A DNA stretch of 64,000 nucleotides, from NCBI GenBank assembly GCA_003024175.1, contig MDYQ01000011.1, positions 124,001 to 188,000 on the forward strand, read 5' to 3'. A model generated the notes under the pieces. It had not been told where the DNA came from. It did no database searches and saw nothing but the letters and a program-made list of their open reading frames with translations. Of the stretch, positions 1 to 64,000 are shown in pieces (within the stretch, counting starts at the first letter, position 1; every line of letters starts with the position of its first letter). Source of the stretch: Planoprotostelium fungivorum (Eukaryota > Evosea > Variosea > Cavosteliida > Cavosteliaceae). Made by a program: the position numbers and the translations under genes.

Positions 1-2042
1 AGTAGAAACAAGCAGAGGAAGAGAGGACGAGAAAGAGAGAAGAAGAAGCGAGGAGGGAAGAAGATAGAAAGAGACACGAGGAACATCAAAAAGAGCAAGA
101 AGAAAGGATGAAGAAACAGAGAGGTGACACACATCATCCATCACGATCATCATCACGATCATCATCATCATTGACAAGTGATGATAACCTTACCTTGTGA
201 CAGAGAAGGAGCTGGCAGCCGAGCAGGAGAGGGAGAGGCTAGAGAAAGAAGATAAGATGAGAAACGAAGAGGCCATGATGAACCGCGCGAGAAGGGAAGC
301 CGAAGAGAAGAAGCAAGAAGAACTCCTCCGCATCAAGAGAGAAGAAGAAGAGAGACAGAGGTGAGTCTACACCGTTGTAGATGGACCGTGACCAATTTTT
401 CTCAGGACAGAAGAAGAAGCGAGACAGAGACAGTTGATGATCGAGGATGACAAGAGGAGAAGAGAAGAGAAGGAGAGGATGGAGGAAGATGAACGTCGTC
501 GGTACGTAACACCAAATTTCCACCGATTTTCCACGACATTTCCATCCTGATTCACGAGCAGCATCGCAGAGAAGGTCAGACAAGACGAAGAGAAGAAGAA
601 TGCCGCAGAGAGGGCTAAATTAGAGAGTGCAGCGAAACAGAAGAAGGTGGAATTAGAGGAACAAGAGGAAGAACAGAAGACACCAGCCTCTCCCACAACA
701 GTGAAACGAGCTCCAGGTTTAGAGAGAGCCTGGAAGGCTGAGGGTGAGAGGAGCTATTTATAGGTGCTCCAGAAGAATGACGGAAGAATAGGATTCAAGC
801 CCAGAATGTTGTCTGTGGGCTCCCAGAGGGGGCTGAACGTTACGGCTTCGCCTGGAAGCTCACCGGTGGACAGTTTCGTGTCGGGGTGAAGCTGCAACTG
901 AGTCCAAAAATAGAATTGATGCGTTGTAGATCGCCACCCACCTCCACGAACGACCGCGAAGTGACGGAGTTGCGAGAGCAGGTGATTTTTCGAAGAATAT
1001 TCTCTCTACAACGACTGAATACGAGTAGGTGAAACAGTTGACAGACAAGGTCCACGAATTGGAAGACACCATCGCAAAAGACATCTCAAAAGATGTCTTT
1101 GTAAAACTAGAACTCGAGCTGCGAAGGATGGTGAGAACATTCCACCCTCTACAACGCTCAACTCCCCCAGGAAAAAGAATACGAAGAATTACGCAACCGC
1201 TATCGATTAGACGAAGAACGATTCAGAATGGCAGAAGAGAAGAGAGAGCAAGAACAGAAGACATGCAAAGAATTAGAAGAGGAAAACCGAGGCAAAGACA
1301 ACCACATCAGGAGGCTGCAGAAGAAGCTGAAGGCTGCGAGAAAGGAAGAACCAGAGAGTACATCAGCTAGCGTGGGGTCGTATTCAAATATGACCGCCGC
1401 AGCCAATTCCGGCGCTCACTCAAGCATGAACGGAGGAGGGGCCGAGCAGGGAGACGTACAGAAGGACAGGTGAGAGGGGGTGGGAGGTCGAGAGTGACTC
1501 GTTGTAGATTGATTTCCAAGCTGAGAGAGACGATATGGGCTCACCAACAGCAGAACTCGGCTCTGAGTGTGGAGGTAACATATAGATCTCTCTTTTGGTT
1601 GGCTGAATTTGAAACAGATGAGCCGAGAAGCCTCCGCCTTTCTGATGAAGATGAGAGTGAAGGATGAGGTCATCAGACAACAGGAGAGGGAGATGAAGGC
1701 ACTGAGAGAGAACCATTCTCTCATCCGAGAGAAGTTTGTCGCCCAACAGGTGATGCATCAACATCACGAGATGACATCACAAGCATTATTCTGATGAGAA
1801 GACAGATCGGTTTAGACAGTCCACATGACGATAACTCGAAAGACGTCGAATTACAGAAGATCCAGCGCGCCTATTTCTTCTCCATCGCTGTGGCATGCAA
1901 GTTGCAGTATGCACCGGAGAGCAACATGAACATAACGGAACTATTAGAGAAAGCCATATCGTTGAATGTGGAGTGGCAAGAGTATCAAGAGTGGATACCC
2001 AAACAGATCATCGACTATTCGAAGAAGCATCCACCACAATAA
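1..2042 (+). CDS. Coiled-coil protein, 5' end outside the window
   Basis: The visible part is dominated by Glu/Lys/Arg/Gln-rich heptad-like sequence typical of a long coiled coil. The first exon is open from the left edge, so the start codon is missing. Exons are separated by short introns, for example about 361-405 (GTGAGT...TCTCAG, containing a CGTTGTAGAT word), about 497-559, and one beginning near 891. After the coiled coil there is a compact C-terminal segment (about 1794-2042) with hydrophobic helices (IQRAYFFSIAVACKLQ) ending HPPQ and a stop that overlaps an AATAAA sequence. I do not recognise the family. An alternative 3' end reaching about 2226, where another coiled-coil-like stretch (LQEEQLRRREE) precedes a stop, cannot be excluded. 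Function is unknown; a cytoskeletal or scaffold role is only a guess. Confidence 0.6.
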
Positions 2043-2226
2043 ATGTCCATCTCTTTGTACTTGATGTTGATGATAGATGGTGTGACGTCTGGAAATGGAT
2101 AGGTGAACATCTCGATTCCATCGAGAAGAGAAGAGAGGAAGAATGCAAGATGAGATCATTACATTGTCGATGATGTTGACCTCTTCTAGGTTACAGGAAG
2201 AACAATTGAGAAGACGAGAGGAATAA

Positions 2227-63000: not shown

Positions 63001-64000
63001 CGTTGTAGATGGAATATTGAACAAATATCAGATCATTCGTGTATGTGAATTGGAACAAGATCTGAGGATCCTCCCAGACGGTGACGACACGGTGATGACA
63101 TCGACCATCTACATCGATCACATATCCTCACCTTCCGCAGGAAATTGGAGAAAAAGGAATCAATCTCAGGTGACATCTACAACCCGCCATCCATGTCTGA
63201 CCTCCACAGTGGCGGCCAGAAGCAGAGGATCTCTCTCGCCCGCTCGGTCTACCAGGACAGAGACATCTACCTCTTAGACGATCCCCTGTCTGCCGTCGAC
63301 GCCCACGTCGGGAAGAACATCTTTGACAAGTGCATCTGCGAAGAGTTATCTCTGAAGACGAGGGTGTTGGTCACACATCAGATCCAATACGTCAACCAGG
63401 CCGAACTCATCGTGGTGATCAAGGTGGATTTCGATGAAAATTCGCGATCTTATGGAAAAAGGAGGGAAAGATCAGTGAGATGGGTACGTACGAGGAGCTG
63501 ATGACTTCCGGGAAAGAGTTTCACTCTCTCATCAAGACACACGTCAGAACAGAAGAAGAGACCACTGAAGGTGAGGCATCGTGACATCATGACACGAGCT
63601 GATGAGTCATGACAGGTAGAGATGTGACGAAGGAGGAGAATGTACTGAGGAAGAGTATGAAGAAGAGCAAGGATGATGAAGAGGTGGGAGGTTTGGAGTG
63701 GCTGGTTGTAGATGTTGAGCGTGTGGCAGAATGAACCGACGAAATTGATCAAAGAGGAGGCCAGAGAGACAGGTTCGGTTGGATTTGCTCTGTGGAAGGT
63801 GATTTTATTTCATTTTATTTGTAGGCACATTCATCTCCTTACGTGTCTCAAATCATTGGTCCAGGTCTATATCAAGAGTGTTAATTCTCCTACACTCCTC
63901 GTCTGCTCCATTCTCTTCCAAGTGAGATTTCTTCATCTACAACTCGCCATTCTGAAATTCATTGTAGATCATCGAATGCGTCTCACGATTATCGAACGAC
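60041..64000 (+). CDS. ABC transporter, subfamily C (MRP-like), 3' end outside the window
   Basis: An N-terminal TMD0-like bundle ([63 protein letters not shown]) precedes TMD1 with the ABCC phrase [17 protein letters not shown]1 has Walker [12 protein letters not shown], the Q-loop [20 protein letters not shown], the signature [20 protein letters not shown], Walker [17 protein letters not shown] and the H-loop LVTHQIQYV. The linker ([17 protein letters not shown]) and the start of TMD2 follow, and the gene runs off the right edge. The exact start is uncertain; the first exons near 60041-60120 do not join cleanly. The many short introns carry CGTTGTAGAT words. Expected role: ATP-driven export of organic anions or conjugates. 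Confidence 0.88.
63801..63820. repeat. Intron block GATTTTATTTCATTTTATTT (second identical copy)
   Basis: This copy is identical over 20 bp to 39285-39304, and lies in an ABCC-gene intron immediately before its acceptor region. Confidence 0.85.

Follow-up and report, generated by a model that had tools for sequence, protein, structure and literature searches.

We report that a short DNA word, GTTGTAGA, is strongly enriched in a 64-kb window of the 36.86-Mb genome of the amoeba Planoprotostelium fungivorum, which is assembled in 471 contigs; the window is the whole stretch analyzed here, positions 124,001 to 188,000 of contig MDYQ01000011.1. The word has the geometry of a palindromic site with a fixed spacer, falls evenly on the two strands of introns, is in excess in exons, and is scarce at gene starts. 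From these observations we infer, tentatively, that it is the core of an ∼21-bp gene-body site for a dimeric DNA-binding protein, which may act as a chromatin barrier or as a block to internal initiation. The original prediction had described an intron word in about 60 dispersed copies; the ∼21-bp extended site, its 4-bp spacer, the low number of sites in the opening ∼600 bp of genes, and the similarly distributed companion words are additional to it.

RESULTS

Abundance of the Word in the Window and the Genome

GTTGTAGA[TC] occurred at 56 sites in the window, 35 on the plus strand and 21 on the minus strand, whereas 100 dinucleotide shuffles gave a mean of 0.98 and a maximum of 4. The 10-mer CGTTGTAGAT was present 34 times against 0.11 expected, and the top 8-mer of the window, with strands pooled, was GTTGTAGA (67 copies). 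Genome-wide, CGTTGTAGAT was found 7,984 times (3,973 + 4,011), compared with 62 (27 + 35) for a control with its letters reversed. The dispersed sites first noticed are therefore real and occur in both orientations, as had been claimed, and a genome-wide count no higher than chance is contradicted by these numbers. All but one of the 23 example positions given originally lie at most 5 bases from a GTTGTAGA[TC] site; position 48727 holds the 8-mer alone. An Rfam scan of the window gave 0 matches at the gathering score, and a tRNA scan of the window gave no match.

Anatomy of the Site

Alignment of 92 intronic sites, including those from loci selected for the word, yielded the consensus A W N T G R C K C GTTGTAGA T G G A, and flank information beyond positions −9 to +11 did not exceed 0.13 bits/position. 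This agrees with the earlier statement that no element body surrounds the word. The site spans ∼21 bp, either as a palindrome with a 4-bp center or as a half-site plus a TGRCKC arm, an architecture that suggests a dimer recognizing double-stranded DNA.

The inverted-pair form is TCTACA-NNNN-TGTAGA. Genome-wide, TCTACANCGNTGTAGA was found 1,489 times against 1 for the control, and TGRCKCGTTGTAGAT 1,359 times against 0. When spacers from 0 to 24 were allowed (TCTACA-N0..24-TGTAGA), there were 2,090 occurrences against 253 for the control, and among the 50 distinct places listed, 46 had a spacer of exactly 4 bp; the places listed from the genome are the first by contig, not random samples. The palindrome and fixed spacing expected of a dimeric site are thus both present. 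Head-to-tail pairs numbered 507 against 35 for the control. Among 100 listed, the offset was 22 bp in 29 and 23 bp in 15, so that the preferred offset of 22–23 bp (44 of 100) approximates the length of the logo, and it was 24 bp in 16, which include repeat arrays such as C42:79275-79471.

The intronic sites were divided between 47 sense and 44 antisense copies, and the flank consensus was broadly alike in the two orientations (46 and 42 sites). TCTACA lay at 4 bp from 17 of 91 intronic copies of GTTGTAGA and anywhere in the same intron for 23, leaving 68 with none. The word behaves like a binding site, as had been suggested, and its palindromic form is consistent with that role. On balance, these sequence features argue for a double-stranded DNA signal rather than an RNA signal.

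Distribution among Introns, Exons, and Intergenic DNA

Genes were predicted with a generalized hidden Markov gene finder written for this analysis, self-trained on the sequence and permitting GT-AG introns only. Predicted introns had a median length of 45 nt, the donor GTGAGT and a branch-like YTGAC ∼10 nt upstream of the intron end. The unbiased sample was 230 kb, comprising the window and loci picked by place. The loci selected for holding the word (L001-L005 and L008) were excluded from synonymous shuffling, 8-mer z-scores, per-strand logos and distances, intron rank, permutation, strand and control-word tests, adjacent-intron and hexamer comparisons, pooled spacing, and densities; they were included in the 92-site alignment, the companion-word location counts, and the fold, intron-length and gene-clustering tests. 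L006 and L007 overlap other loci and were not modeled for genes, the pooled spacing test used one of the two tandem stretches of L010, and position-in-gene counts were restricted to genes with a predicted 5′ end.

By these models, 42 of the 56 window sites were intronic, 13 exonic, and 1 elsewhere. The original statement that nearly all sites fall in introns was right about their intron richness and too strong as to the proportion, because of these 14 others. In the unbiased sample, introns held 69 of the 89 perfect words and exons 18, and the other 2 lay elsewhere. With two settings, densities per Mb were 1,417–1,510 in introns, 137 in exons, and 38–40 elsewhere. Exons and intergenic DNA thus do not carry the word at the density of introns, although the exonic excess is real. 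Six of the 18 exonic words lay in one repeat-rich gene, L031:6106-10000, without which the exon density was 94/Mb; this frame held 24 copies of GTTGTAGA, 23 of them called exonic and 6 of these perfect 10-mers, and it was added after the synonymous-codon test, of which it is not part. Dense word arrays in repeat-rich frames were also seen at C42:79203-79660 and C11:117751-118037, with 24-bp steps frequent on both of these contigs; such frames are rich in Leu-Val-Val-Asp on one strand and probably in Ser/Thr on the other. The two perfect non-genic copies, L027:1429 and L027:1467, lay at the edge of and just past a stretch 90–92% identical to L017 gene sequence, and a near-identical string that lies on contig C11, a little beyond L017, suggests that this likeness continues.

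Synonymous-codon shuffling of 65 genes (37,324 codons) gave an expectation of 5.8 exonic copies of GTTGTAGA against the 38 observed, a number reached in 0 of 300 shuffles; for the reversed word the figures were 11 and 6.7 (14 of 300). The excess was present on both exonic strands, and Val-Val-Asp was encoded as GTTGTAGAT in 10 of 24 cases. By z-score, GTTGTAGA was the top 8-mer both in exons, against synonymous shuffles, and in introns (81 against 0.7). The idea of a strictly intronic word is therefore not upheld. Flank preferences persisted, more weakly, around exonic copies. Outside gene models there were 13 copies of GTTGTAGA against 1.8, mostly without the remaining consensus.

Word-bearing introns had a median length of 44 nt compared with 45 nt. 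Gene-level clustering was modest, being reached by 55 of 2,000 shuffles for the main word and by 18 of 2,000 for TGACGTCA, and adjacent word-bearing introns inside genes were not in excess (12 against 10.0; 539 of 2,000). Codon bias (G+C at third positions, GC3) did not explain word density across 61 genes (rho −0.01).

Scarcity of the Word at Gene Starts

The word was scarce in early introns. By intron rank, words were found in 0 of 69 first, 1 of 68 second, 2 of 122 third or fourth, 23 of 185 fifth to eighth, 24 of 166 ninth to sixteenth, and 21 of 93 later introns, that is, 3 of 259 for the first four compared with 68 of 444 thereafter (Fisher 2e-11). Permutation within the 52 genes that have at least 5 introns gave 16.6 expected in the first four introns against 2 observed (0 of 5,000). 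Intronic sites per kb rose with distance from the start codon, from 0.21 at 0–300 bp and 0.37 at 300–600 bp to 1.64, 2.09, 3.14, 3.83, and 4.3, and exonic sites over the same series were 0.06, 0.13, 0.24, 0.24, 0.17, 0.60, and 0.81. The scarcity held inside the window, outside it, and in genes of at least 3 kb, and the three loci added last contributed 2 intronic sites in start-predicted genes, both more than 1.5 kb in. Among control words in the first four introns, CTGAC (26 against 29.3), TTTTT (7 against 10.0), and CTCTC (32 against 31.2) showed no clear depletion, and two 8-mer controls were too rare for judgement. The hexamers with the greatest excess in distal relative to proximal introns were fragments of the main word and of GATGACGTC, together with TCATCA, CATCAT, and TTTATT.

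Companion Words

Other short words accompany the main one, and we take them to resemble bZIP/CRE (TGACGTCA), E-box, heat-shock-type (GAAnnTTC), and E2F-type sites. TGACGTCA was located in introns 44 times, in exons 6 times, and elsewhere twice, and in the window it numbered 6 in gene model 7270-10908, 5 in 12863-18331, and 8 in 18596-25405. The palindromic TGATGACGTCATCA had 501 perfect copies genome-wide against 0 reversed, and at L010 its core merges into the main word three times as TGACGTCATCGTTGTAGA. Scarcity in early introns was shared by TGACGTCA (3 against 8.4; 28 of 3,000), GAAATTTC (0 against 3.3; 65 of 3,000), and TTTATT (0 against 6.8), of which the 8-mer ATTTTATT is strand-biased (18:4). 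GATGACG was less depleted (12 against 18.0; 119 of 3,000), GGCGGG was at most weakly scarce (1 against 3.0), and CACGTG was not scarce (6 against 6.1). CATCATCA/TGATGATG, which is abundant in introns, is strand-biased (98 sense, 40 antisense) and not scarce early (22 against 21.6 for CATCATCA), and it is thus a matter separate from the main word.

Sites in the Window

Palindromic forms in the window comprise the perfect 18-bp palindrome ATCTACAACGTTGTAGAT in introns at 10156-10173 and 25016-25033 and the palindromic TCTACATCGATGTAGA at 20104-20119, all three unstranded; the pseudo-palindrome TCTACA-CCGT-TGTAGA(T) at 366-382 (+) in intron 361-405; the pseudo-palindrome TCTACATCGTTGTAGAT in introns at 22587-22603, 46450-46466, and 51733-51749 (all +); and a pseudo-palindrome at 47001-47017 (−) within intron 46980-47028. 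The 5′ end of this last intron, GTATCCTTT, is the sole such case among 818 predicted introns in the sample, and we take it to resemble the minor-spliceosome 5′ consensus. Two head-to-tail copies of CGTTGTAGAT, offset by 22 bp, occupy 8297-8328 (−) in the single 60-nt intron 8278-8337; two sites at the same offset lie at 38593-38623 (−) in a single intron, and two offset by 12 bp lie at 62908-62929 (+) in an intron.

Single intronic copies of CGTTGTAGAT are found at 9317-9326, 23620-23629, 27128-27137, 29075-29084, 30932-30941, 39052-39061, and 63001-63010 on the plus strand and at 17412-17421, 19612-19621, 22726-22735, 29364-29373, and 31658-31667 on the minus strand. The copies at 922-931 and 1500-1509 (both +) span the predicted 3′ ends of introns 886-929 and 1470-1507, respectively. 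In intron 34428-34476 the copy at 34433-34442 (−) has a shorter inverted copy near the opposite intron end, and in intron 62069-62132 the copy near one end, at 62071-62080 (−), has as its inverted partner GTTGTAGAC near the opposite end, at 62120-62128 (+). Exonic copies, all on the plus strand, are at 8442-8451 (STT codons of a minus-strand gene), 19761-19770 (VVD), 24028-24037 (CLVVDG), 24367-24376 (CLVVDE), and 34957-34966 (called exon).

GTTGTAGAC is intronic at 9143-9151, 24123-24131, 31094-31102, 58720-58728, and 61035-61043 (+) and at 20480-20488 and 51600-51608 (−), and exonic at 15301-15309 and 28884-28892 (+) and 5535-5543 (−). GTTGTAGAT is intronic at 58543-58551 and 63705-63713 (+) and 63175-63183 (−), exonic at 25070-25078 and 35155-35163 (+) and at 54175-54183, 62658-62666, and 63935-63943 (−), and forms at 47942-47950 (+) the window's single site outside gene models.

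The two predicted proteins tested were assigned Pfam domains, kinase plus RhoGAP in one and ABC transporter in the other, and a GH16 protein is among the window's predicted products. Among the 120 hits listed of 7,993 for this GH16 protein, two were P. fungivorum proteins at 58% and 49% identity, and no listed hit exceeded 68%. A DNA search with window positions 18500-33200 returned short matches only, with no full-length copies of its genes elsewhere in the genome. Other repeats were noticed outside the window, namely telomere-like CCCTAAA repeats at a contig end (L012 6984-7045), near-identical tandem repeats (L027 3784-10000), and a dispersed 1.4-kb repeat (L025 3351-4747 and L029 4902-6262, 88.6% identical); L013 4489-5828 is presumably a reverse-transcriptase-like fragment.

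DISCUSSION

A Proposed Gene-body Site

We propose that a sequence-specific protein may recognize the double-stranded site, probably as a dimer. The full form would be ATCTACA-NNNN-TGTAGAT, and the commoner form, AWNTGRCKCGTTGTAGATGGA, would consist of one strong and one variant half-site. Such sites would occupy transcribed gene bodies, mostly more than ∼600 bp past the start codon, wherever the sequence is free, with the highest density in introns and, within coding sequence, at places where the choice of synonymous codons leaves room. The bound protein would mark or organize the part of the gene that lies away from the promoter, and its likeliest role would be to act as a nucleosome barrier in chromatin or to stop spurious initiation from within genes. 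If binding hinders initiation, sites near the true start would be selected against, and the paucity of sites at gene starts accords with a protein that interferes with, or represses, initiation once bound.

A broader and more doubtful possibility is a genome-wide gene-body code, in which several short palindromic words, with the present one foremost and each bound by dedicated proteins, would mark transcribed DNA more than ∼600 bp from the start as genic and prevent initiation there; if true, it would mirror the intron signals known from promoter-proximal positions. The familiar marks of gene bodies, among them the histone methylation deposited behind polymerase, are not encoded in DNA sequence. 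A word of ∼21 bp that is present throughout gene bodies, influences the choice of codons, and is rare near gene starts would constitute a gene-body signal encoded in the sequence itself. Its thousands of natural copies make the distinction that the cell draws between the inside and the start of a gene directly testable.

Several observations weigh against the proposed gene-body site. The gene models are computational predictions. Of 122 sites, six are closer than 600 bp to a start codon, and a single L028 gene model accounts for three of these; the control word GAGAG was itself mildly scarce in early introns (16 against 22.3; 118 of 3,000 at or below). Position −3 differs by strand: 33 of 46 sense sites have C there, whereas 21 of 42 antisense sites have A, which indicates that palindromic arms are commoner in antisense. 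Two paralogue alignments preserved every intronic core base (18 of 18 and 8 of 8) and a third preserved 9 of 10, a conservation that is suggestive only; in the first pair, 33 of the 358 intronic bases outside the core had changed.

Spacing on the nucleosome scale is likewise a weak signal, strong in the pooled sample, modest for pairs of GTTGTAGA genome-wide, and absent for GTTGTAGA with TGACGTCA. Pooled words gave 19 pairs 150–180 bp apart against 5.2, a null that is too low for close pairs generally (∼115 against 76 for all pairs at 60–540 bp) because it does not keep early introns empty. Direct pairs of GTTGTAGA numbered 541 at 150–180 bp, 448 at 110–140 bp, and 435 at 190–220 bp, with reversed controls of 13, 18, and 8 in the order reported. 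TGACGTCA downstream of GTTGTAGA was not enriched genome-wide at 150–180 bp (162, against 184 at 110–140 bp). Exon lengths showed no peak near 147 bp, and the idea that introns serve as nucleosome linkers was dropped.

Alternative Explanations

The word might instead be an ordinary regulatory transcription-factor site, an enhancer that lies in introns for want of intergenic space. Several factor-like words are indeed intron-biased, TGACGTCA among them, and TGACGTCA and GAAATTTC are scarce early as well. Enhancers, however, are usually found also in promoters and first introns, which for the main word are the emptiest places, and CACGTG is not scarce early, with GGCGGG and GATGACG only weakly so; we regard this explanation as credible but unlikely. 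The very high copy number, the absence of common flanks, and the arrays seen now and then, for example of a 17-bp unit on contig C8, would also suit a short word, selfish or driven by mutation, that propagates through conversion or templated repair and is tolerated only where harmless. Neutral spread should nevertheless occupy intergenic DNA, whereas the two perfect non-genic copies in the sample lie in or beside L017-like gene sequence. Word-bearing introns are not longer, and an increase with distance from the gene start is not predicted by such spread, which we judge only slightly less likely than an enhancer.

An RNA element, either a splicing enhancer, as the original prediction suggested, or a pre-mRNA hairpin, would account for the richness in introns, and the palindrome is able to fold. 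It is hard to reconcile with the even strands (47:44) and with the exonic copies, whose excess is on both strands; a splicing enhancer is thus not supported. The spacer of exactly 4 also speaks against RNA, and the hairpin was rejected since 68 of 91 sites have no partner in their own intron and the folding excess is weak (fold z of −0.62 for word introns, −1.18 for TGACGTCA introns, and −0.21 for a sample of other introns). We consider an RNA element very improbable, and even less credible is a relic of introner-like elements that made the introns, also suggested originally. Intron location and the inverted copies near both ends of introns 34428-34476 and 62069-62132 recall such elements. Similarity along the intron length was not seen, however, nothing being shared past ∼21 bp; word-bearing introns are no longer than others, and it was the exonic copies together with the absence of common flanks that led us to reject introners. 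In introns of at most 60 nt, sites were mostly interior rather than terminal; no search for target-site duplications was made.

Comparison with Known Systems

In the open-access literature, subscription papers being mostly outside its scope, we found no gene-body or distal-intron word of this kind and no introner report with Protostelium. Among the matches listed for open-access papers containing either 10-mer there was no amoeba study; one deals with intronic protein-binding sites in circular-RNA formation in brain. Bacterial highly iterated palindromes and uptake sequences are likewise single short words with thousands of copies and inverted pairs, but the amoeba word belongs to a genome with spliceosomal-type introns and is concentrated in gene bodies, off gene starts. 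Periodic A/T clusters (PATCs) offer another parallel. Those of Caenorhabditis elegans, which protect genes from silencing (PMC7725773), are a non-coding intronic signature that acts as DNA; unlike them, the amoeba word is a specific palindromic site. Introners share with the word an intronic location, up to thousands of copies, and an inverted-repeat flavor (PMC9860276), but the word has no common body, adds no intron length, has exonic copies, and is limited to ∼21 bp.

The plant intron-mediated-enhancement word TTNGATYTG is intronic, is also active in exons without splicing, and depends on position from the gene start; natural stimulating introns lose their effect beyond ∼1 kb downstream, and no activity of the motif is seen from 1,800 nt on (PMC6760150). 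Both are short words in transcribed DNA, intronic and exonic, and position-dependent with respect to the gene start, whereas the amoeba word is scarce at starts, rises with distance, and has a palindromic full form. Enrichment in promoter-proximal introns, by which intron-mediated enhancement is recognized, is absent here (2 against 16.6 in the first four introns), and plant-type enhancement fits poorly as an explanation. The plant word is nonetheless the nearest known kind, with its distribution mirror-imaged in the amoeba.

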